NCBI GenBank assembly: GCA_022592445.1
Contig: JABYQR010000093.1
Span: forward strand, 1-64,000
Length of the DNA: 64,000 nt
Direction: 5' to 3'
From: Cytidiella melzeri
Taxonomy: Eukaryota; Basidiomycota; Agaricomycetes; Polyporales; Irpicaceae
Below are positions 37,586 through 63,435 of this stretch, piece by piece. A program made the position numbers and the translations under genes. The notes beneath the pieces are model-generated. The model ran no database searches. It saw nothing but the letters and a program-made list of their open reading frames with translations, and had not been told where the DNA came from. Positions within the stretch are counted from its first letter, which is position 1. Every line of letters starts with the position of its first letter.

Positions 37586-37713
37586 TAGTCTCGGTCCCAG
37601 ACGGTCCGGGCTTGCTATCCTTATAAGGGAGCGGAGAACGAAAAAAAGTGAGGAGCGAAGCCCGAACGTCTGGTGTCTCTTGGACGCCCGGGTGTAGATG
37701 AATCGCACGTGAA
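37586..37713 (+). repeat. terminal repeat of a DUF6589-helicase type element (third copy)
   Basis: It begins TAGTCTCGGTCCCAGACG, contains GGAGCGGAGAACGAAAAAAA, and ends with CGGGTGTAGATGAAT...CACGTG. It matches the two inverted repeats at 56904-57044 and 63302-63426. It lies 137 bp upstream of the helicase ATG, as in the complete element. An inner hairpin pairs 37597-37612 with 37658-37673. Confidence 0.88.
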
Positions 37714-37849
37714 GGTCGCGTCGCGCTCACAATCGTGTCCAGCTCTGGCGTCTACTTCATTTGTGCGCACACAACTCGCTTTCCTTTGCTTAGTTCTTGC
37801 TTTCCTTCTTGTCCCTCTCATTTCTTTATGCCATAACTTATGAAATAAT

Positions 37850-40253
37850 ATGCCTGTGACTATTACACCGGTTGAAAGACCACGGTGGGATCCCCTCGAC
37901 GCCCTAACACAACCAAGACTCAGCTCTGGACGGCCGAGTACTACTGTTAGACAAACCCCGACGACTACTCAACCTCTGCGCGCTGCCGCTGCCTCTCGAG
38001 CTATCGCCAGTGGTGAGGAGACCTACGAGACAGTTTTATCTCGCCTGCAGCCGCTTGCCCCAAAAACAGTCAGTCATTCCCGGTCTTACAGGCTCCTCGA
38101 GGAAGCTCGTGCACATGCAAAAAAAGTTCGCAACTATTGCTTCGAGACTTACAGGAAAACCTTGTGCGCAGAGGTCCAACGGAGATGTAATGGTGTCACG
38201 CCGTATTGGTATCAAGTGGACGTCGCCGAGGCGTTCCATCTCGGATTGGACGTCTCAATTCTTGCAGGGACTGGCTTCGGAAAAACTCTGCCGTTTGTGA
38301 TGCCGCTACTTGCAGATGAGACTGGTGAGACCAAAGTGATAATCGTCTCACCTCTGAACGCACTGGAACGCAATCAGGTAAGCCTCACTCATTGATCATG
38401 CTAATAACGTTAATCGCCGCTCACTATATGCGCCTCGTCTTGTTGAACAGGCTAAACGGTTCTGCTCTATGGGACTAGCAGCCACTGCAGTCAATGGCGA
38501 GGACTATACAAACGAGCTCCATCAGGTGAGACAAGAATCTCCGCTTGGAATTGAATACCATTTACTCACTTCCTTTGGATAGCAACTCGAGGCGAACTGT
38601 TTTCGCGTGATCATCACGTCGCCAGAGATGATCCTCAAGCACCCTAAGTTCTCAAAGCTTGTCAAAAACTCGGAATGGCTCAAGAATACTATAGGAATCA
38701 TAATTGACGAGGCTCACTGTGTCGCGCAGTGGGGGGACAATTTTCGTGAAGCGTTCACCGCGCTCGAGCAGACACGATCGTTTGCTGCGCGAAAACCAAT
38801 CATGATCGCGTCTGCCACTCTATCGCCTGGGATGCTCGAGAAGGTGTACGACAAGCTGTCGTTCTCCCGCCACAAGACATTTCAGCTAAATCTTGGGAAT
38901 CAGCGACACAACATTACTCAGCTTGTTTGCCGGCTACCGGGAAAAGGACGCAACTTCAAGGCATTGGACTTTCTTTGGGAACCCGCCACTCGTGGCGAGT
39001 CTCTTCAACGTGCGGTTGTGTATGTCAAGACGAGAGAGCTTGCAATGGACGGATGGTTATACGGCACCTCAAAAGTCCCGCGAGAATACCACTTGAGGCT
39101 CGGATTCTGCCATAGCATGCGCGAGGATCGAGCGAAAGCTCGAGTGATCAGGCTTTTCATGGAAGGTGCGATTGATATTGTCTTTGCAACAGACTCGATG
39201 GGAATGGTGAGTGCGGATTGATTGCAATGAGCATGATTTCATGACATGACAGGGCATGGACATACCTCGTTGCCCAGTCACCGTCCAGTTCATGGTGCCT
39301 GATTCCATTAGCGACTATACCCAGCACTTTGGACGAGCAGGACGCGACGGAACACCTGCTGTTTCTGTCCTACTGGTAGAGCCGTCAGTGTACCAGATGA
39401 CCAAGAAGCGCAGACCTACCATTCAGCAACCTGTCTCTGTAAAGAAGGAGGATGACAATGTAGATGTGGCATCAAGTCTGAAGCATAAGCGTCCAGAGGA
39501 AGTTCACCGTCAGGAATTAGGGGACACGCAACAACGTCAGGGTCCCAGCGCGGATCACGAAGGTGTCCCTGAAACACAAGAACGTCAGGGTCCCAGCGCG
39601 GATCACGAAGGTGTTCCTGAAACACAAGAACGTCAGGGTCCCAGCGCGGATCACGAAGGTAATGTGGCTCACGGTGTTCCTGAAAAAAGATCTTTATTGA
39701 ATACACACAAGCTCCCCTCGCTCTCGATGAACTCGAACAAGCATTTGATGTCGACGGGGAGATGCAGCATCGCAAGCGCATGGACCCCGAGATGAGAGAG
39801 CTCTGCATCACAACTGCATGCGTACAGGATGTCTTGGATGCTTTTTTTGACAATCCCCCACGCGTCAGAGGTGAGCTTCATGATCAGCATGTCCTCTTGG
39901 CTAACATGTATCATTTGTTTCAGAATTGATAGTGCCGTGTTGCCACAGCTGCATCAAAACGCGTGGCACGGCACAAAATCCGTACTCCGAGGCGGACACC
40001 AAGATACTGGCCATGATGCAGCAAATCGAATCTACGCTCGCACCCCCTGCCGACACCGCAAATGCAGAAGATGTACGCAAGGACTTGCGACGAGGCAAAC
40101 GACGGGATGCTGTCTACTGGGCTCTACGCAGCTGGCGACACGACTACTGGTTCCTACATTACTCTACTTGTGGATTCCCGATGCAAACTCTGCTACCCGA
40201 CAAGTTCCTCAACTTCCTTGCAACAAACGGTCATATACGCACCTCAGACGACC
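37850..40253 (+). pseudogene. RecQ-like helicase of a second transposon copy, 3' end cut off
   Basis: From ATG 37850 (MPVTITPVERPRWDPLDAL), exons interrupted by three short introns encode RecQ-type DEAH helicase motifs. These are AGTGFGKT (Walker A), DEAHCVAQWGDNF, SATLSPGML, DSMGMGMDIPRC and QHFGRAGRDG. They are followed by a linker with three copies of a 48-bp repeat (39535-39660), a frame change near 39680, then a C-terminal zinc-binding-like part (CCHSCIK) and FLNFLATNGHIRTSDDL. The frame is lost at 40254 where an LTR begins; the intact relative at 60062-63174 continues for about 280 more residues. It would unwind DNA 3'-5' if functional, but this copy is truncated. Confidence 0.88.
39535..39660 (+). 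repeat. 48-bp coding minisatellite in the helicase linker
   Basis: CGTCAGGGTCCCAGCGCGGA and what follows recur at 39535, 39583 and 39631, giving the protein repeat ERQGPSADHEGVPETQ. The related helicase at 60062-63174 has a single QGPSTDG here. Confidence 0.92.
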
Positions 40254-40758: not shown

Positions 40759-40771
40759 TTACCCCCCTCCT
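40759..40771 (-). promoter_or_regulatory. polypurine tract of the LTR-A chromovirus
   Basis: Minus strand AGGAGGGGGGTAA lies directly before the LTR start TGTCACGA. It is identical to the tract of the older LTR-D element at 8437-8449. Confidence 0.88.
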
Positions 40772-43700
40772 AAAGGCCTTTTCTCCGGAAGGCAGGAGTT
40801 GAGTCTTTTCCGTCTTCCCACAAGGATACGCGTCGTAGAGTTTCTGAAGGTAGCTTCTCAAAATTCTCATTAATTGGTCGGAAATTCATTGCCAAGAATA
40901 GAGATGCAGCGATTGGTCGTGGAGCTCCTGGGTGTCGTCTGTGGAAATCCTTTACGGCTTCATCGGCATGAGTGACGTTGGTGGCTGGTTCCCAGGAATT
41001 TTCTGATTCTGGGTATCCTTTCCACTTAACACGGTACTGAAACTCCTTCTTTCGCCCGAAGATCCTTGAATCAAGAATCTGTTCTACCTCGTACTCCTCT
41101 TCTTCGTCTACCACAATCGGCTCAGGTTCAGGAAATTCCCGGTTAGGGACCAAACTTGCCGTCTTGGCTGGTCGCAACCTATCCACATGGAACACCGGGT
41201 GACGCTTGTCCCGAATGGTAAGTTTAACCCGGTAATTCAAATCCCCAATCTTTTCTAAGATCGCATAGGGACCATCTCGTTTTGGTGCTAGCTTTGCCAC
41301 CGGCTGTTCCTTGGGATGTTTTTCACGTTCCACGTACACTTTGTCACCAACTTCAAACTGCGGAGCTTTTGCAACTCCATGATCGTAGAACCGTTTCATG
41401 CGTTCTGCCGTAAGTTGTAGCGCAGCTTTAGCATCTTCTTGGGCTTCTCGTAATGCTCGAAGACGTTCGTCTGCTGCGGGAACATTGGACACTGGGTTCA
41501 AAGGCACCTGGAATTCCGGTAAATACCCATAGATCAGTTCGAAGGGAGCCTTCCCGGTGGACGAGTGTACTCGGCTATTAAGCGCAAACTCCGCAATCGG
41601 TAACCAATCTACCCAGTCATCCTGTCTGAAGGAGCAGAACACTCGGAGATACTGTTCTATCTCTTGGTTCATACGTTCTGTTTTGCCGTCTGTCTGAGGG
41701 TGATACACGGTGGACATGGACGACTTTACTCCGAGTGCATCGTAGATAGCACGAAGGAACTTGGACGCGAACACTGATCCACGGTCTGAGATCATCTGTC
41801 GAGGTACACCATGGAGTCGAAACACGTTTGCAATATAATCCTGCACGTGTTCGGGGGTTTTCATGCTTTCCCGTGATGGGTAACAGTGCACCTGCGCGGT
41901 TGTTCGATCAACTGCAACCGTGATGGAATCGTATCCTTTACATGGCGGCAGCTTGACAATAAAGTCTGTGGTGACGCTTTCCCATGGAGCATTGGGCGGC
42001 TCTAGTGGATTGAGTGGACCGCGTGGTGGAGCGGGGTATGTCTTTGTTCTTTGACAGGTGTCACATGTGTCTACATAGTCATTGACAAAGCGTGTCATGC
42101 TGGGCCACCAGTAGTTCCGAGATAGCAGTTCCAGTGTCTTGTACCTGCCTGGATGTCCGGCGGCGGGTAAGTCATGATGTCTCCGAACCAGTTCTTTTCG
42201 GATTTCGTCATCTTTAGGGACATAAACTTTTCCCCGGAACAATAACAGCCCGTTCTCCACGTTCCACTCTTCGAGTCCCCGACTAAGAAGACGAGGTCCG
42301 AGTTTCTTGACTTTGGCAAGTGCTTCTGCCACTTCAGTCTCTCGCAGAGAACATTCACGGATACGTTTTAACAGGTCTCTGTCTGGTTGTACGCTAGCTT
42401 GCCCCCGTTGAGAAGCAGCGGCTCGGAAGACCTCTGGTCCTAGGACTATTCGTGATAGATTATCTTCTTCGTCCTTGACCTCGTGTTGGCCTAGCCTGGA
42501 CATAGAATCCGACTTTCCCATTGATTTTCCGGGCTTCGGAATGATTTCAAAGTTAAAACGTGAGAGGAACAACGACCAACGTGCTTGACGGCGTGTCAAG
42601 TTACGAGCTGTCTTCCAGTACTCGAGGTTCTTGTGGTCAGAGAAGATAGGGAATTTCTCTGGTAGCCCTTCCAAGTAATGACGCCAGTCTTCAAGGGCTC
42701 GTACAATTGCCATGAGTTCTCGGTCGTAGATCTCATAGTTTCGTTCAGTCTCAGTCATGCCTTCAGACCGATAGGCTACTGGATGCCACGTGCCGTCTTC
42801 GGCTTGTTGTTCCAATACCCCTCCCATTGCATACCCGGATGCATCCGTTTCCAAACGTGTGGGTCTATCAAAACTCCACATTGCCAACACCGGCGCTTCC
42901 ACAAATTGTCGGCGGAGTTCATCAAACGCCGACTGTTCTTCAGGGCCCCATTTCCAAGGAACCTTGCCCGTGAGACGGTCTAAGGGCTTACATATTTTTC
43001 CGAAGTCTTTGATGAATCTCCGGTAGAAGTTTGCAAACCCACGGAATCGGCGAATATCAGAGACATTCTGCGGTACAGGCCACTCAGCCACTGCCTTTAC
43101 TTTGACAGGGTCCATGCGTAACTGATTGTGACCAATGATAACACCAAGATATTCTGTCTCTGAATGCTCAAATTCGCATTTTTCCGGTTTAAGAAACAGA
43201 TCATGTTGTCTGAGCCGTCTCAGAACTTCATGTACCACCTCGCGGTGTTCGGAGATCTCCTTGGAATAGATGAGGATATCATCTAGGTAGACAGTGACCT
43301 TGCCTTCAGCAATAAGATCAGCAAAGATGTTGTTCATCATGTTCTGGAATGTGGCCGGGGAATTGGTAAGACCAAAGAACATGACCGTAGGTTCAAACAA
43401 TCCTCGGTTGGTGACAAATGCAGCTTTGTGTTCATCGCCTTCCTTGATGCGGACGTTATTGTACCCCCATCTGACGTCTAGCTTAGTGAAGAACTTAGCA
43501 CCGCGCAATCTATCCATGAGTTCAGAGATTAACGGCAGTGGATACCTGTTTTTGATAGTGACTTCGTTCAACTTCCGGTAATCCTGCACTGGGCGTAACT
43601 TTCCATCCTTTTTCTTGACAAAGAAGAAGGGTGACGCCATTGGGGATTTCGACGGTCGAATGTACCCTTTCTCTAGGTTCTCTCGGATAAACTTATCAAG

Positions 43701-43790
43701 CTCTTCTTGCTCAGGGTGTGACAGCGGGTAAACCTTTGCATGGAATCCTTTTGCCTCCGGAACTAACTCAATTGCATGGTCGTACGATTG
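40770..43790 (-). CDS. pol: Pol: reverse transcriptase, RNase H, integrase, chromodomain
   Basis: An open minus-strand frame, 956 codons from MASPFFFVKKKDGK and in frame a little further upstream to about 43790, carries all Pol domains. RT has KLDVRWGYNNVRI and the catalytic VYLDDILIYS (residues 117-126 of the 956). RNase H has ETDASGYAMGGVL and YDRELMAIVRAL. The integrase zinc part is HHDLPAAGHPGR...CDTCQR. The integrase core shows TTDFIVKL, MISDRGSVF and GKTERMNQEI as the D, D and E sites. A C-terminal chromodomain (EYEVEQILDSRIFGR to NSWEPATNV) would guide insertion to modified chromatin. The domains look intact. A frameshift near 43790 cuts it off from protease, so translation as one polyprotein is lost. 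Confidence 0.93.
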   Translation of the reverse strand, partial: QSYDHAIELVPEAKGFHAKVYPLSHPEQEELDKFIRENLEKGYIRPSKSPMASPFFFVKKKDGKLRPVQDYRKLNEVTIKNRYPLPLISELMDRLRGAKFFTKLDVRWGYNNVRIKEGDEHKAAFVTNRGLFEPTVMFFGLTNSPATFQNMMNNIFADLIAEGKVTVYLDDILIYSKEISEHREVVHEVLRRLRQHDLFLKPEKCEFEHSETEYLGVIIGHNQLRMDPVKVKAVAEWPVPQNVSDIRRFRGFANFYRRFIKDFGKICKPLDRLTGKVPWKWGPEEQSAFDELRRQFVEAPVLAMWSFDRPTRLETDASGYAMGGVLEQQAEDGTWHPVAYRSEGMTETERNYEIYDRELMAIVRALEDWRHYLEGLPEKFPIFSDHKNLEYWKTARNLTRRQARWSLFLSRFNFEIIPKPGKSMGKSDSMSRLGQHEVKDEEDNLSRIVLGPEVFRAAASQRGQASVQPDRDLLKRIRECSLRETEVAEALAKVKKLGPRLLSRGLEEWNVENGLLLFRGKVYVPKDDEIRKELVRRHHDLPAAGHPGRYKTLELLSRNYWWPSMTRFVNDYVDTCDTCQRTKTYPAPPRGPLNPLEPPNAPWESVTTDFIVKLPPCKGYDSITVAVDRTTAQVHCYPSRESMKTPEHVQDYIANVFRLHGVPRQMISDRGSVFASKFLRAIYDALGVKSSMSTVYHPQTDGKTERMNQEIEQYLRVFCSFRQDDWVDWLPIAEFALNSRVHSSTGKAPFELIYGYLPEFQVPLNPVSNVPAADERLRALREAQEDAKAALQLTAERMKRFYDHGVAKAPQFEVGDKVYVEREKHPKEQPVAKLAPKRDGPYAILEKIGDLNYRVKLTIRDKRHPVFHVDRLRPAKTASLVPNREFPEPEPIVVDEEEEYEVEQILDSRIFGRKKEFQYRVKWKGYPESENSWEPATNVTHADEAVKDFHRRHPGAPRPIAASLFLAMNFRPINENFEKLPSETLRRVSLWEDGKDSTPAFRRKGL

Positions 43791-44717
43791 TGTTCTGGCA
43801 GTTGTTGAGATTCCGTTTCAGAGAAAATGTGAGCATGTTGACGATATTGTTCAGGTACCATCTCCTCAAAGTTTTGACTGGTTTAACCCGGTTCTCGACC
43901 TCAGCTAGTTCACTAGAGTATGTGTATCCCGCTAGAGTGAACAGGTGTTCGCCTTCCTGTACCATAGGTGTCGGACATGTACGTACAATGCGTCGGGGAG
44001 TTCCTTTTCCACCGAGCTGAGTAGTGGCCTGTGCCTGTAACTTCGGCAATTCGGCCCCATCCAAACTTCCTGAACCTTCCGTGGTTTCCTCGATGTCTTC
44101 TTCGGCCTCCTCCGTATCCACCGGCAAGTACGGAAGCTGTTCCACAACTTTCCGTAATCCCGGAGTTCTCTTCTTCCGTTTAGGCTCAGCTGTTCTCTTA
44201 GCTGCAGCCTCCCTCGCTTCATCAACCCGTTGCCTGGGTTTACATGCATCAGGACATCCATCCATCCTGATGATGCCTTCGTACCAATCAATGGTGGGGT
44301 TATGATACCGCAACCAATCGATTCCTATAATTACGTCTTCGGGTCCAATATCAGTGACCGTGAAGATGGTCCTCTCCTCGTGGTCCCCTATCCTCATATT
44401 GAGAATGGCAACTTCGTCAATAGCCCCGTCTCGATTTGGGGTTCCGTCTATGTTGTACACCGGAATGGGTTGTTTCAACTTCCGGGTTCTGATACGATGC
44501 TCTCGAACAAACCGTTTATGAATGAATAGTGTCGAGGCTCCACTATCAATCATTGCTGCGACTTCTTTAGATCTCCGCACTCCTGAAACTGTGATGGGTA
44601 CGTGAAAATGTTCCGATTCAGAGCCAGTCTCTAATACATCAGACGCGAGTACGGAAAATCTATTGTTACATGGTATACGCGGGGCACGTGCTTGCGCAGC
44701 TCGAATCACGGCCCGAA
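43768..44717 (-). pseudogene. retroviral-type aspartic protease region of the chromovirus
   Basis: The minus-strand frame contains the active-site strand MIDSGASTLFIHKRFV and the later flap and hydrophobic pair (NIDGTPNRDG, VIIGIDWLRYHNP), typical of Ty3/gypsy proteases. It follows gag after a stop (TGA at 44720-44718), in another frame, with no ATG of its own. Near 43850 and again near 43790 the expected protein continues in other frames (VPEQYRQHAHIFSETE, then AIELVPEAKGFH). Two frameshifts thus separate it from RT. Confidence 0.85.
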
Positions 44718-45919
44718 TCAAAAACCCTCCTCAAGTCTCTTCTTGAGGTCGGCGTTCTCCGCCCTCAACTTCTCCAGTTCTCCTAGCACGGCTTTGAGTG
44801 TTACTTCCGACACTCCCGACGAGCTCGACGCTTCTTCCCTCTCAGGCTTCTTTTCTTCGGCCCGAGAAGAAGATACCTCTCCAGTGGTAGCAGCCACACG
44901 AGTCCCTCGAGGTGGTGGGCGTGGGACTGCCGGTTTGGTGCACGTGCGTGCGATGTGACTGGGGTCGGTGGTAATCTCTTGACAGTTGTAACACCGCCGA
45001 CCTTGTTGCATTTTGGAGGCATCGACCTCCATGGGAACCGGACCGTTGGAAGGACGGGGAACCGGAGTAAACCTGGGCTGAGACTGGGTGGGTCTCGACG
45101 TAGTTGACGGGGGAACAGACGGAGTTTTCTTTTCCGTCGTCTCCCTGATGCGGGCGTATGCGGCTGCCATTTTCAGGGACCTATCAATCCAGCCTTGGTA
45201 ATTGGCTGGAGGTGCTTCGGCCGTTGCCAGCCGCCCGTAGATGTATTCAGGGAGACCCTTTATGAACCGGATCTCCTTGTCTTTGTCGCTCAACCCGTTG
45301 ATGCGACCCACGTATGACTGGAAGTCAGTGACGTATGTACCGACATCCCGCGCGTTCTTTTCCTTCTTTTCAGCTCCACAGAGCTTCTCCAGTTCGCGAA
45401 TGGCAGTATCCTCGGGCGTTGCATCGCCGAAGTACTTTTTGAGTTCGGTTTTGAACTTAGCCCACGTGTCAAGATTGGCCGGCAAATCACCGTTGTGGTC
45501 AGCCATGTGATCTGTGACTGGTATTGCCCATTGGGCAGCTTTCTCCGACAGACGGTAGATGGCCGTCAGGACCTTGGTTTTCTCGTCCGTGATACTGGCA
45601 GTCACCCAGTAAGCCTCACACTGGGACAGAAAACGTTCCAGGTCACACCATGTTCGCCCTTGTATCTATCGGGCTTGGAATCATTGTTGTTGACCGTAAC
45701 CTGCGGTCTGGGCATTGCTTGCGCGACTGCAGCTACAATGGCTGCAACCAGGGCGGGATCAACCGCGGGTGTTGTCATTGTGGTGGGAGTGGGGGAAACG
45801 GTTTCAGGAGCAGTGATGGGATCAGGAATAATGGGGTTAACGTCTGGTGGAGCCGGTGGGTTTTCCGGTACAACTAAACTGGTATTGACTTTGACTTCTT
45901 CAGGAACTCCGACAATCAA
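44718..45919 (-). pseudogene. gag: Gag with an unusual zinc knuckle, one frameshift
   Basis: The N-terminal part (from about 45919, MIVGVPEEVKVN) runs to KPDRYKGEHG, then the frame shifts near 45640. The capsid-like part continues with DLERFLSQCEAYW, LAKFKTELKKYF-like and FIKGLPEYIYGRL. A nucleocapsid zinc knuckle near 44990 reads CYNCQEITTDPSHIARTC, spacing C-x2-C-x8-H-x4-C instead of the usual C-x2-C-x4-H-x4-C. The tail holds a coiled-coil-like stretch (LGELEKLRAENADLKKRLEE). Gag would package the element RNA. The frameshift probably inactivates this copy. Confidence 0.85.
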
Positions 45920-56894: not shown

Positions 56895-56903
56895 GTCGCC
56901 AAC
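56895..56903. repeat. target site duplication, left (GTCGCCAAC)
   Basis: Identical to 63427-63435, directly outside the TAGTCT end. Confidence 0.9.
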
Positions 56904-57044
56904 TAGTCTCGGTCCCAGACCCTCTGCACGCTGCCACGTGCGCTGCCTTCCTGTTTTGGGGGCGGAGAACGAAAAAAAAAACCAGGAAGCCAGCTGAGGG
57001 TCTGGTGTTCCTGGCCTATCCGGGTGTAGGTGAATCCCACGTGG
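56904..57044 (+). repeat. left terminal inverted repeat with inner hairpin
   Basis: It pairs with 63302-63426. It contains GGCGGAGAACGAAAAAAAA, GGCCTATCCGGGTGTAGGTGA and ends CCCACGTGG. The inner hairpin arms are CCAGACCCTC (56915-56924) and GAGGGTCTGG (56996-57005). It carries about 18 bp (TGCACGCTGCCACGTGCG-like) that the other copies lack. It likely also serves as promoter for the DUF6589 gene. Confidence 0.9.
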
Positions 57045-57158
57045 TTGTGATTATCTGCGACTGTGATTGCAAATCACGGCGCAATCAATTTACGAGTTTT
57101 GTACACTACACGTTCCAATAAACTTTGCTTTCCCCCGTCTCGTCTCGTTTGCCCTCAA

Positions 57159-60010
57159 ATGCCTCGTGCACGCGTTCCACGCCAGTACTTTGAAGGTGCC
57201 GACCTCAAGGACGAAGACGACTCGGACTCTGGTGACGAGTCTGAGCCCAGCCCTGCCAGAGGACCGCTTGGTAGGACAACACGGTGCGCGAGCCGCCTTG
57301 AGACCACCTCGCATCGACGGATTGCCGCGAGGTTGAGATGCACCATCGACTTCATGGCGCTACAGGGTCTGGACGTTGCCACGCTTCTGTATTATCTCTC
57401 CTGGAACCTGGACGACGAGGAAGACGAGCAACTTGATGCAGATGACCGAGACAACCTATTCACGCATACATCGAACCTCGGTGTAATCAAGTACGCACGC
57501 ACCGCCCTCACGCACTACGACAAACTGCCTCAGATCCTAGATAATTTGCGGTGCCCCCCCGCGCAAACACGGTAGAGGAATTCGATCGCAGGGTGCTCGC
57601 GAGGCCATGGATGCCTGGTCACTCGACAATGTGAAGATGCTCGTTTTGAAGGACTTGCACGCCCTCTCTGCCATGATGACCTGCCCCCCTTCCAATTTGA
57701 CAGAGGAGCATCTGCTGTCAATCAACCTCGTCGACTCGGTTCGAGAGGCCCGAGCTCTCGCGCCAACTCTCTGGGATCTGTTACTCTCGGCGACATGTAC
57801 TCCACGACAGCTCAAAAAGAATACGTACAAGGATCCTTCAGAGGTACGCTGTATGTGCGCGTAGCGATTGAACCCACTCAAATTACTGCGCAGGTCATTT
57901 TCATAATTATGTGCCAGCTGTCCTTCTCGCGCTTGAGCAAACGCTGCAAGTACCAGTAGCTGATGAGCATCTACTTCAAGTCCTGCGGAGTATCAGGCAA
58001 GGCCGCCGATACGCTCTATCTCTGGAAGATCTGCATGAACCAGAAATGGATTTACGGCATGCTCAAGAGCATTGGCAATAGAAACCACCAACAAATGCTC
58101 AACGACATTCATGTCCTTGGCCTACCTGTCGCTGGTAGTCACAACAACCTTGATCTCGGTTTCAAGACATACAAACAACGCACCGACAACAAGAGCCATT
58201 TTGACAGCGGCTGCGCCGCCACTATTTACACCTTCACCGACGCAAGCTGTGTTGCCCCCAATGCGAAGGCCTTCCAGCAGAAGTGGCACAAAGGTGCCAA
58301 GGACCCTATCTCCTCCCTCGATATCTTCGACGCAGAGACTTCTGGAGCCGAGCGCTTGTTCCAGGAGAACAAGTATACCGTGCTCAAGATCTTGATGATG
58401 AGCACGGAGTTCTCCTTCGAGACGTACACCCAACGTTTGCACTCTGTTTTTGCGCGGCCACCTGCTGTATTGCAGCTCCCCATAGGTCGGGAGCACGCCA
58501 CTCGCCAGTATATGCTCAAGACCGTACACAAGGAGGAAACCTCTCTAGATGGCAATGACAAATGCATGCAAGAGTGGTTCTCGCAGGCAAGTGCTCCGCT
58601 CTCAGACTCTCAGATCAGAAAATGTACTGAATTGGCTACCCTCCGCAGATACGACTCAATGACAATGAAACCCGGCAGAGTCTCACGCAGAACAAGATCA
58701 TCCCGTGGATTGGAGATCAACTCACTGTCTGACGCCTTCGCACTCTGAAGAAACTACGCAGCTGGGACCTCAACTGGTGGAACCGCATGGAGGAGATCCT
58801 CGAGCTATTCGGATGGTTCCACGCGCAGATATACCAAGAACACTCAATCATCAAGCAGCACTACACTACGACAAAGGGTATGGGCCTCAAGATGGCCTTC
58901 GATGTGCTAGAACGCAAGGGGCTTGGGGCACCGTCAGTCCAGGGGAACTACCATCAGATTGCACAAGAGGCTCTCAAGCATGTAACGATGGCTCACGTTC
59001 GAGACCTTTGGCAGCTCGTTGGCAATGCTCAAGATCTCACTGAGTTACGTGCCAAGACTCTTGAAGATCTCAATGCTATTGCTGAGAAGATTGTGACTGA
59101 CTACGCCTCGACGAACGCACTCACAAAGCTGGACGCTTTGCCGCGAGAGGAGCAAGATGATCTATTCAAGAATGCCGTGATGTACTGTCGCGATGGCCTC
59201 GACTACTGGAACCTCGACGACGCAATGCTCTCAGGGGATGTCGGCCGCATGGAGCTTTTGCTCCCGCGACTGCTCTATCGGTACCACGGCGGGAACAATT
59301 GCAAGTACACCATTGAGTTTCTTAAGTTATTTCAGTCCATCCTCCGAGAGTGGCCAGAGGATTTGAAGTATGTCTTGCGCTCATACCCGCGTAATCGTCA
59401 CTAATACTGCTCTAGGGAATTCGTGATGCGTCACTGCTGGCTTGCAAACACAACGGGAGATAAGGACGCATTTCTCGCGTACGACATGGTGCAAGAACAT
59501 AACATCCGGGACATCAAGGTAAGCTGTTCAGCTCTTATAGACAAAGGCAAAACTCATATTCACGCGAAGTACACCTTCATGGTGCTCAGGCCTTTCGCAA
59601 CATGGGATTATATTCACAAGATCTCGGCCTCTATTCCCACCCAGCGGAAGGTGAAGGACCATGTCGAGGCAAACTTCAACCACTTCCGACGCGGCAAGTC
59701 TCACACCACTCCCGAGGCTGAGAAAGACATCAAGAACCTACAAGATGCGTATCAAACCACAAGAGTGCATGTGCGCGTCCCCGGGCAACATCTCATGGCA
59801 GTTGATCGTGCGAAGGACTTTGTCGCCCTCGGGAGTGATCAGCTCAAACTCGATGCCACAATCAAACGCTGGTCGGAAAGACGCACCTCGTCTCGTGCTA
59901 CCACAGAAGATTGGGAGCTTGAGCCTCCTATCCATACACACGCTGATTCTGACGACACAACACAAATGCAGGTAGGCATACGACGCGCAGATGGAAGTGC
60001 AAATTCGTAG
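57159..60010 (+). pseudogene. DUF6589-family protein, putative transposase, with three disabling changes
   Basis: ATG 57159 opens MPRARVPRQYFEGADLK. In-frame continuation needs a 6-base C-run where seven stand at 57554-57560; the frame then gives PRKHGRGI and AMDAWSLDNVKML. Introns are inferred near 57842-57893, 58589-58650 (GC-AG), 59367-59416 and 59520-59569. Conserved DUF6589-type stretches are SCGVSGKAADTLY, QRTDNKSHFDSG, IGREHATRQYMLKTVH, WFHAQIYQEHSI, LERKGLGAPS, CWLANTTG, DMVQEHNIRDIK, DHVEANFNHFRRGKSHT and KDFVALGSD. A TAG near 57957 and a TGA near 58720 interrupt it. DUF6589 proteins are abundant, uncharacterised and transposon-linked in Agaricomycetes; a transposase role is my inference. 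It is probably dead here. Confidence 0.82.
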
Positions 60011-60061
60011 TACAAACACGTTGTAATCTAGTCATGCAATACATACACGCCTGCAACACCT

Positions 60062-63000
60062 ATAACTGTCCTGTCTTGATGGGTTTCCAACAAAGCTTCA
60101 CAGGCAAGTTGCGAGGGGCATTACTGGGCTGAGGCTGAGGGTGAGCTTGCGCCGCCGACGGAGGAGTGGGTTGGAAGGAAAAAGGTGCTTGCATCGTGCT
60201 CGGAAAGGGGGTCTCGGATGACAGCGGGAACTGGGGTGGAACATAGAGGCAAGGCAAATTTGTGTCTGGAAGCAAGCCATAGTACGGGGTAAAAGACAGC
60301 AAGGGCGAGGCAAGAGACGACGAGGGCAAGACCAGAGACGACGAGGGCGAGGCAAGAGACGACAAGGACGAGGCAAGAGACGACGAGGGCGAGGCAAGAG
60401 ATGAGAAGGGAAAGACGAGAGACGACAAGGGCGAGGCAAGATTCAACGGACTGGAAGGTGACGCGGAGGCAAGGAACAAGGAGATGGAGGACTGAATAAG
60501 AGCAGCGTCCAACGCCGGAAGCAATTGGGACACCCTCTCCTGAGGGATTGGCACCAGAAGGGGATCTGTGCGTACAAAGCGTTTGCTGGATCCGTTGTAC
60601 ATGGCAAACAACGTTTGGCCGGGAGTAGTCTGCAGGGGCAAGTCCTTGTTTTGCTGGACAAGATTGAGCAGATGTGCATTGCGGCTGTCCTCTAGGCGCG
60701 TTTCGTCTCGGATCACCTTATTTGCTTCCGTCTTCTGACGCTTTTGAGATGCAGTAGCAGCCAGCTGTGCAATATGTTGCTCCTCAGCTCGAGCAACCAC
60801 ATTGAGAACTTCTTGACCGAGGCGAGTGGCGAATCTCCATTCAGGAATGAATAGCTGCAGCAGATCGAGAGTCGAGACATGGGCATTTGTTGCTATAAAG
60901 TTGAGGTACTTGTCCGCGAGCAGGGTTTGAGGGGGGAATGAGCACTTGCTATAGCTCTGCTGCCAACGCTCAATTCTCCAGCTATGCAAGGCTTGAAAGA
61001 CAACTTCTCGACGATTTCCGCGCCGTTCTTCCCTGCGAATCTTCGCCATGCCGGCTTGTCGTTCAGTCCGAGGGAGAGGCTGTAATGCAAACTCAATCCG
61101 ACTTATCAGGCCTAAGATCTTTATGTTGTCCTCCGTATGAGGGACTTTGGCAGTACCTCGCTTCTTGATACAGTTGTGGCAGCATGGACAGTGAGAGCTG
61201 AGAAGTAATCAAAGGTAAGTGTTCATGATCATTGATCAATGTGTACTTACAACGAACACGGGGCAGATTGTCAAAGAACGCATCAGATATCTCTTGCACG
61301 CAGGTTGATGTAATGCACAGCTCCCGCATCTCGGGGTCCATACGCTTGTGGTGTTGTAGCTCTCCATCGACGTCGAAAGCTGCCTCTAGCTCATCGGGCT
61401 GTTCAGTGGCAGGTACATTTTGTCCGTGAGTGACGTTGGTGCCATCAGTGCTGGGACCCTGAAGAATTCCAGCGTGTTCCTGTGCCTGATGTTCCTGTGC
61501 CTGGTCCTCGTGACGCTTGCGCTTGAGCGCTGCCGGAGAATCAACTTCTTCCTGCTTGATACTCGATGATGCAGGAGGTTGGCTGCCCTCGGATGCAGAC
61601 TGCTTGGCGGTAGGCTTTCTCTTCTTTGTCATTTGGTAAACTGATGGCTCGACAAGCAGAACTGATATTGCAGGATCTCCATTTCGACCTCCTCGGCCGA
61701 AATGCTGAGTGTAGTCACTGATAGAGTCAGGGACCATGAATTGCACTGTGATGGAACACCGCGGTATGTCCATACCCTTGGAACCTTATGCGTCAAAAAT
61801 TGCTGATGAGAAATTGTTTGGACATACCATTCCCATAGCGTCCGTGGCGTAAACAATGTCAATCTTCTCTTCCATGAATAACCGTACCACACGAGACTTG
61901 GTTCGACTCTCTCGCACGCTATGACAGAAGCCCAGCTTCAGACGGTATGTGTTGGGTATTTTTGAGGTTGCATCTAGCCAGAGCTGCATGGCAAGCTCTC
62001 GCGTTTTGACATATACAATTGCACGCTCGAGAGGTTCGCCCCGGAAGGCTGGTGCTAAGAGGAAGTCGAGCGAGTCACAGCTTCGCGCTGCTGCTGGTAA
62101 GCGACATACAATTTGTGTAATGTTGTGACATTGATTACCGAGATTGAGATGAAAGGTTGTTTGCTTAGAGAAGGATAGCTTCTTATACACCATTTCAAGC
62201 ATGCCAGGAGATAGCGTCGCAGAAGCAATCATCAAGGGTTTACGCGCTGTGAACAATCGGGCCTGCTCCAGGTCGGTGAACGCCTCACAGAAATCATCAC
62301 CCCACTGCGCGACACAATGTGCCTCGTCCACAATAATTCCACCCACATTCTTCATCCAACTCAAGCTCCTCATGAGCTTTGAGAACCGAGGGTGCTTCAA
62401 GATCATTTCCGGAGTGGTGATGATGACACGGAAGTGATCAGCTTCGAGTTGCTGGAAACTAAGGTGAGTCTTTGTAATAACATGTGAATCGCGTGAGATA
62501 TCACCTGGTGCAGCTCGTGCGAATAGTCCTCGCCATTGACAGCCACAGTGGTCAGCCCCATATCACGGAACCGCGTAGCCTATCAGAGTGAGTGAGTGCA
62601 TGGCACATATAGTCAGCTTCGAGTACATTGACAATCCTCATCAGAAACTCACCTGGTCACGTTCGAGAGCATTGAGAGGTGAGACAATGATCACCTTTGA
62701 ACTGGACTCCTCGACAAGCAGTGGCATGACAAAGGGGAGTGTTTTCCCAAAGCCTGTTCCCGCCACAATCGCGACGTCCAACTCGAGATGGAAGGCTTCT
62801 GCGACGTCTTCTTGATACCAATACGGTACGCGTCCATGACATCTAGCTTCAATCTCGTGTCTGACTCTACTCCGCCATGTCTCGGAACAATACTGGCGAT
62901 CTTTCTTTGCCTGTTCTCGGGCCTCTTCGAGTAGCTTGTATGACCGAGCATGGTTGACCGTCTTTGGAGCCAGGGGCTGTAGTTCATCCAGAATAGACTC

Positions 63001-63174
63001 ATATGTATTTGCTGCTGAAGGCTGTGATGGAAGGGACGAGGTCGTGCAAGACGCAGTTGTCAAAGATTGGCTACCAGACAGGGCTGCAGTAGCTTCGGGG
63101 CGCGGGCGAGGTGCCATCAGGGCGTCGAGAGGGTCCCATCGCTGCTTGTTGACTCGTGTAATTGTTACTGGCAT
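60062..63174 (-). CDS. RecQ-like DEAH helicase encoded by the transposon
   Basis: From ATG 63174 (MPVTITRVNKQRWDPLDAL), short introns near 62640, 62460-62580 region, 61780-61830 and 61200-61250 join the motifs AGTGFGKT, DEAHCVAQWGDDF, SATLSPGML, DAMGMGMDIPRC and QHFGRGGRNG, the RecQ order I to VI. A charged linker, a cysteine motif (CCHNCIKKRG) and a long C-terminal half follow, with a Ser/Leu/Ala/Pro repeat (21-bp units, 60303-60445). It should unwind DNA 3'-5'. Compared with the copy at 37850 one base seems missing near 61187, at an exon start, so this copy may be frameshifted. No RQC or HRDC domain is obvious. Fungal telomere-linked helicases are distant relatives by motif. Confidence 0.85.
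60303..60445 (-). repeat. 21-bp coding repeat in the helicase C-terminus
   Basis: About six and a half units of GAGGCAAGAGACGACGAGGGC and variants (plus strand) encode SSLASPS-like repeats on the minus strand. Confidence 0.88.
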
Positions 63175-63301
63175 ATTGTTGAGCAATAAGACATGGAGGG
63201 ACAATGGAATAGCGAGACAGAGACGAAGTAAGTACAGGATCGCGCGTAGTGCTTATAACATAAGCGCCCGCAGTGGACGCGTTGTGGACGTGACACGATT
63301 G

Positions 63302-63426
63302 CCACGTGGGAGTTCACCTACACCCAGATAGGCCAAAAACACCAGACGTTCGGGTGCCCCCCTCTCTTTTTTTTCGTTCCCCGCTCCCTAAACAGGAAGG
63401 TGCCCGAACGTCTGGGACCAAGACTA
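63302..63426 (-). repeat. right terminal inverted repeat with inner hairpin
   Basis: It is the mirror of 56904-57044. The inner hairpin arms are CCAGACGTTCGGG (63342-63354) and CCCGAACGTCTGG (63403-63415), around CTCTCTTTTTTTTCGTTCCC. It lies about 128 bp upstream of the helicase ATG and may serve as its promoter. Confidence 0.9.
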
Positions 63427-63435
63427 GTCGCCAAC
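63427..63435. repeat. target site duplication, right (GTCGCCAAC)
   Basis: Identical to 56895-56903, directly outside the AGACTA end. Confidence 0.9.

Follow-up and report, generated by a model that had tools for sequence, protein, structure and literature searches.

A well-delimited transposon of an already published kind in Cytidiella melzeri, with a RecQ-like helicase and a probable DUF6589 transposase

Academ elements carry terminal inverted repeats, and the AcademH group reportedly goes back to Kojima 2020 (Mob DNA 11:15). A RecQ helicase was described for Academ (PMC3627910), recQ_fam and DEAD domains were found in fungal Academ copies, with recognisable protein domains in 1,568 of 1,938 (PMC6416283), and Academ is present in Marasmius oreades (PMC8290104). 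AcademH duplicates 9 or 10 bp of its target, the difference in duplication length between AcademH and AcademX was linked to their helicase and nuclease (PMC10045372), and the group was called low-copy (PMC10799480). KolobokH is a fungal DNA transposon with a DDD/E transposase and a RecQ helicase (PMC9587614). According to the consulted parts of these sources, the union of transposase and RecQ helicase is already in print as Academ/AcademH (PMC3627910, PMC6416283, PMC10045372), and the original prediction that the element analysed here represents an undescribed transposon class is therefore not supported.

The window (the whole stretch of 64,000 nucleotides that was analysed, part of contig C725 of the 49.7 Mb genome of Cytidiella melzeri) harbours a real, well-delimited transposon of this published kind. 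Its two additions to the published picture, as far as consulted, are DUF6589 as the probable transposase and terminal hairpins with matching, changing arms. In databases, the DUF6589 proteins of many mushroom-forming fungi are labelled hypothetical.

The element spans exactly positions 56904–63426 (6523 bp) with inverted ends TAGTCT...AGACTA, its left junction reading ...GTCGCCAAC/TAGTCTCGGTCC and its right junction ...GGACCAAGACTA/GTCGCCAAC... (slash, element boundary; Table 1). GTCGCCAAC is a perfect 9-bp duplication flanking the element; among tested lengths of 4–14 bp, only 9 bp gave one mismatch or fewer. Left and right terminal repeats agreed at 83% across 99 bp, and their outermost 17 bp differed at one base. 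The left flank is a dispersed repeat, interrupted by the insertion. With the joined flanks and a single GTCGCCAAC as query, 27 matching places were obtained, 20 of them spanning the junction, e.g. C401:28458-28627 with an 81% match; the four aligned copies (C401, C101, C10, C327) showed no gap at the junction, one 9-mer (GTCGCTGAC or GTCGCCGAC), and gaps elsewhere. These uninterrupted repeat copies are paralogous, not orthologous, empty sites. The pattern TAGTCTCGN{2,3}CCAGAC occurred 218 times in the genome, compared with one occurrence of the reversed control pattern. Chance repeats at the junction were ruled out by the duplication-length test, the empty-site matches and this pattern count. 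The predicted 6.5-kb unit with TAGTCT...AGACTA ends and identical 9-bp flanks was thus confirmed, with exact coordinates and paralogous empty sites.

Table 1 Features of the transposon at the window locus (positions in the window)
Feature	Position	Strand	Remarks
Left target duplication copy GTCGCCAAC	56895..56903	.	Present once in paralogous empty sites
Left terminal inverted repeat (TAGTCTCGGTCCCAGAC...)	56904..57046	+	C722 and C146: 100% identity
Left terminal hairpin, base CCAGAC/GTCTGG, stem CCTC/GAGG	56915..57005	+	-25.9 kcal/mol, z -4.0, 0/200 shuffles as good
DUF6589 gene, probable transposase, looks disabled	57159..60010	+	NCBI annotation BC835DRAFT_1416081 (P0094)
RecQ-like SF2 helicase, several exons, convergent to DUF6589	60060..63174	-	Limits from ORFs, not full gene model
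Right terminal inverted repeat (TAGTCTTGGTCCCAGACGTTCGGG... on - strand)	63284..63426	-	
Right terminal hairpin, base CCAGAC/GTCTGG, stem GTTCGGG/CCCGAAC	63342..63415	-	-17.9 kcal/mol, z -2.8, 3/200 shuffles as good
Right target duplication copy GTCGCCAAC	63427..63435	.	

Elsewhere in the window, a relic at 37586–39221 stems from another such element; it comprises a right-type end and a helicase exon (69% identical) in which stops are present and an open piece of 212 aa is left. It is followed by a Ty3/Gypsy-like retrotransposon at about 40770–45665. Apart from the main copy, no DUF6589 match was listed on the window's contig, the relic being without one.

Searches with the left and right ends yielded at least 40 and at least 30 places, respectively. 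Full two-gene relatives of the window element are located on C722, C146 and C17, and 1.0–1.9-kb elements bearing its ends on C98, C325, C168, C42 and C22. Perfect duplications were found in 23 of 30 end-pair rows (9 bp long in 17, 8 bp in 6 and 10 bp in none). The first set contributed 8 of 11 end pairs, with 9 bp on C725, C146, C98 and C325, and 8 bp on C722, C168, C42 and C22; a perfect duplication was missing on C17, on C285, where a 9-bp pair with 2 mismatches was seen by eye, and on C512, whose left end was guessed and which was scored as a miss. The second set of 19 rows comprised 13 perfect 9-bp duplications, 2 perfect 8-bp duplications, 1 of 9 bp with one mismatch, and 3 without duplication; the third C166 row, which only pairs the outer ends of two elements, was scored as a miss. 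In the C17 relative (C17:58234-64756), the exons compared were 95–96% identical and both ends looked intact, with no duplication, possibly owing to recombination between copies.

Gene-less elements with the same ends are usual for non-autonomous derivatives. Here, short elements of 181–823 bp, too short for either gene, carry the same ends and perfect 8–9-bp duplications (C7, C65, C106, C68, C118, C158, C2, C12, C157; L073-L076, L078-L082), so the ends seem to be sufficient in cis. The original prediction had named ends that mostly enclose other content as evidence against itself, and such content was found in part, since many of the short same-end elements are gene-less. At six places, an element lies inside or adjoins the end of another (L061:433 and 7378, L064:413, L088:1513 and 1503, L093:45, L099:21, L105:21), the L105 case being weak (TAGTCTC only). 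They account for 8 of 119 outer flanks of 20 bp; among 20-mers taken from the window as background, the figure was 40 of 2800. The arrangement may reflect self-targeting of ends or, alternatively, nested insertion where repeats are abundant.

The DUF6589 gene scored 183 bits against PF20231 on its best-scoring exon in the Pfam scan of window ORFs. Judged from its sequence, the window copy looks disabled, with a frame break near 57.55 kb and in-frame stops at 57957 and 58730, sites through which P0050 from C722 is open; the window element is therefore probably unable to move alone. Among 42 DUF6589 homologues, D436, D453, H471 and D610 were invariant (42/42), and D271 (40/42) and E636 (41/42) nearly so (P0006 numbering); the first conserved D is replaced by N in the window copy (P0094) and in one other of the 42. 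This conservation suggests D271, D436 and E636 as the likely catalytic triad, and DUF6589 is most likely a DDE-type protein with an RNase H fold and the corresponding chemistry. DUF6589 matched neither the known transposase profiles nor the solved structures, and any other Pfam family had matches, all weak, in at most 2 of the 42 proteins. Since no other gene was seen in the element besides the helicase, DUF6589 is taken as the transposase by elimination. Relatives with names were fungal among the best 120 of 173 matches, for which the 7999 candidates sharing most words were scored, and in a single viral-contig search for DUF6589 elements no relative was found. The term DUF6589 was absent from the literature searched, and no description as probable transposase was met in the Academ/AcademH literature consulted by search.

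On the opposite strand, the helicase exons matched DEAD and Helicase_C (Pfam), and Walker A, DEAH and CCxNC motifs were recognised by eye. The best NCBIfam match was recQ_fam in 3 of 3 helicase pieces, including one window exon, at scores below the full-length cut-off, the pieces being exons only. In the solved-structure search, helicase Q5 (RecQ5) ranked best, and BLM and WRN chains also matched. The C-terminal helicase ORFs of four families showed, by eye, CC[DHN]NC after a further Cys, an arrangement also present in the RecQ zinc site. A recQ_fam family search of the genome gave 32 matches (30 of 184 candidates scored). The strongest, on C87, and an exon group at C668 were both without a DUF6589 match and are probably host genes.

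PF20231 matches were grouped into 82 DUF6589 loci in the genome, some of them fragments. A helicase match lay within 6 kb in 56 of the 82 and was convergent in 55, about 1.7 being expected; this count used 85 of 89 helicase rows, the second pieces of four helicase loci being omitted. C17:66141 is the single non-convergent case, and a convergent helicase match is present there too, at C17:70245. Identities of both genes to the window copy covary (Spearman 0.63 for 26 pairs; 0.46 within 23 diverged pairs). Ten two-gene elements were examined at both ends, and in eight (C725, C722, C146, C151, C93, C713, C127, C161) both genes lie inside ends with perfect 8–9-bp duplications; the exceptions were C17, without a duplication, and C53, without a left end. 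Five of the eight (C151, C93, C713, C127, C161) represent diverged families, the right end of C713 being degenerate. As these perfect duplications recur across diverged families, the two genes move as one unit, and the prediction that DUF6589 and helicase make up a single transposing unit is strongly supported.

A reading as neighbouring host genes, with ends belonging to an unrelated short element, might draw on the short same-end elements that enclose no genes, and on the 27 of 82 DUF6589 loci without a convergent helicase within 6 kb (26 without any match there, with one query); among these loci, C93:6-1253, without a helicase match, borders the end of its contig, and for C132:35635 and C168:108996 a convergent helicase match lies 7–8 kb away. 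Against it stand the eight elements at different sites with both genes between perfectly duplicated ends, an association far above chance, and the separation of the host-like RecQ gene on C87, and probably that on C668, from DUF6589. With unit movement and genome-wide association, independent host genes were ruled out, and we regard this reading as exceedingly improbable.

The locus is best explained, with good though not full confidence, as a disabled two-gene transposon of the Academ/AcademH kind, in which a DUF6589 DDE transposase would act through 9-bp staggered joining with the helicase as partner in the reaction. The transposase would bind the TAGTCTCG...CCAGAC ends, and a cut at TAGTCT would release the element, which would then be joined to the target at a cut staggered by 9 bp, or at times by 8; the staggered gaps would be filled in by repair, giving the target duplication. 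Cutting, staggered joining and gap repair are proposed on account of the duplications and the known behaviour of DDE transposases. The RecQ-like partner might remodel hairpin-capable ends or cruciforms, or open the strand-transfer product for repair; its step in transposition is put forward as a proposal. The 8-bp duplications count against this explanation, as they fall outside the 9 or 10 bp published for AcademH. Further points against it are the lack of transposase-profile and structure matches for DUF6589, the absence of 10-bp duplications, the 27 DUF6589 loci without a convergent helicase within 6 kb, the missing duplication on C17 and missing left end on C53, the degenerate right end of C713, and the hairpin arms that are absent or unpaired.

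In many ends, an 11-nt tail (TAGTCTCGNNC) precedes CCAGAC; a variable arm, a loop and the complementary arm come next, and GTCTGG closes the structure. Eleven ends, hand-picked and all with both arms, were folded; folding was better than the shuffle mean in 11/11 (z -2.7 to -7.7), with the stem beginning at nt 10–12 in each. The first set of ends had the distal GTCTGG in 47 of 67, and its 20 clusters showed an own-arm identity of 0.68 at 8 positions versus 0.44 between ends (0/20000 permutations as good); these clusters include rearranged ends and the 181-bp element L078, in which the opposite end takes the place of the "distal arm". For a second set, another 40 ends were drawn from the places listed by the pattern search, following the list as far as C162 and skipping seven close neighbours of others. 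The distal arm was present in 20 of the 40, against 2.6% by chance in shuffled letters, and 10 clusters, about half of them new relative to the first set, gave 0.69 versus 0.44, with 0 (8 positions), 1 (6 positions) and 12 (10 positions) of 20000 permutations as good. Combined, 104 distinct ends, 66 with distal arm, formed 25 clusters with 0.68 versus 0.44 (0/50000 permutations). Equal own-arm and between-end values would be expected from one drifting ancestral palindrome, so that pairing was kept or made again.

The base CCAGAC/GTCTGG and its position about 10–12 nt from the end are fixed, and the stem is family-specific yet matching within an end. At stem positions 4 to 8, three Watson–Crick pair types each were found, with 7 to 16 of 25 clusters unpaired. 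In the right stem of the window family, a stepwise change is visible from GTTCGGG/CCCGAAC (C98) via GTTTGGG/CCCGAAC (C17) to GTTTGGG/CCCAAAC (C22). The left stem is unlike the right one in the window's family, in C151, in C93 and in the C2/C12/C157 elements. In C713 and C161, GTCAGGG starts the stem at both ends, and the loop exceeds 130 nt or no arm was present in the piece examined.

Template switching is able to correct quasi-palindromes, and this process, or repeated inverted duplication, could match the arms without selection. That the hairpins are such a by-product, without function in transposition, has a considerable, if less than even, probability: the distal arm was missing where tested in 38 of 104 ends, misses which include ends that are truncated or rearranged as well as some hairpins, shorter or longer, beyond the place tested, and C713 and C161 share the short GTCAG stem at both ends. 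Against this, base and position are kept while stems that differ between families still match within an end. From the hairpin-capable sequence, hairpins are presumed to form in the cell. Only tentatively, and with some doubt, we suggest that the ends are recognised through their DNA structure, the RecQ-like helicase acting on hairpins or cruciforms and thereby licensing cutting or repair. If so, this would be a cut-and-paste transposon using structured ends, as single-strand (IS200/IS605) and rolling-circle (Helitron) elements are known to do. The matching hairpins are a candidate reason for a helicase in a DDE-type transposon, a question posed by AcademH and KolobokH. Hairpin ends in Academ were not mentioned in the literature searched, as far as its consulted parts go, which lay outside the original AcademH description and are not proof of absence. 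With DUF6589 tied to a mobile element, many DUF6589 genes and their RecQ-like neighbours may count as transposon genes.

Among other known transposons, a MULE (MuDR) was rejected, as Pfam scans gave no PF10551 match in nine window ORFs or 42 homologues. Helitrons have a Rep/HUH nuclease and a PIF1-type helicase and produce no target duplication; they were ruled out by the RecQ-type helicase, DUF6589, the terminal inverted repeats and the duplications. Helitron2 shares with the window element a helicase, a hairpin at either end and compensatory changes, and differs in its RepHel protein and short asymmetric inverted repeats (PMC3627910), whereas the window element has long terminal inverted repeats, an 8–9-bp duplication in its family and a RecQ-like helicase. 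KolobokH resembles it as a fungal element with a RecQ helicase beside the transposase; its helicase is encoded downstream of the transposase domain instead of in a convergent gene, and the Kolobok duplication is TTAA (4 bp) (PMC9587614). The varied 8–9-bp duplications found here ruled it out.

The window element has the superfamily II/RecQ-type helicase of AcademH and the terminal inverted repeats of Academ. It could instead belong to a separate superfamily, a different transposase lineage with its own acquired RecQ helicase, like KolobokH: 6 of 23 perfect duplications are of 8 bp, a RecQ helicase also occurs in that other fungal lineage (PMC9587614), and the likeness to Academ concerns features, not transposase homology. 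We consider this unlikely, since helicase type, 9-bp duplications, fungal host and the pairing of helicase and transposase fit AcademH as described in the consulted parts of the literature. AcademH is, like the window element, a helicase-bearing transposon with 9-bp duplications in Basidiomycota (PMC10045372, PMC10799480); differences are its 9 or 10 bp against 9 or 8 bp in DUF6589 elements (PMC10045372), and its low copy number against the 82 DUF6589 loci, fragments included (PMC10799480). Architecture, duplication length and host, likened to the published description, thus point to membership in AcademH.
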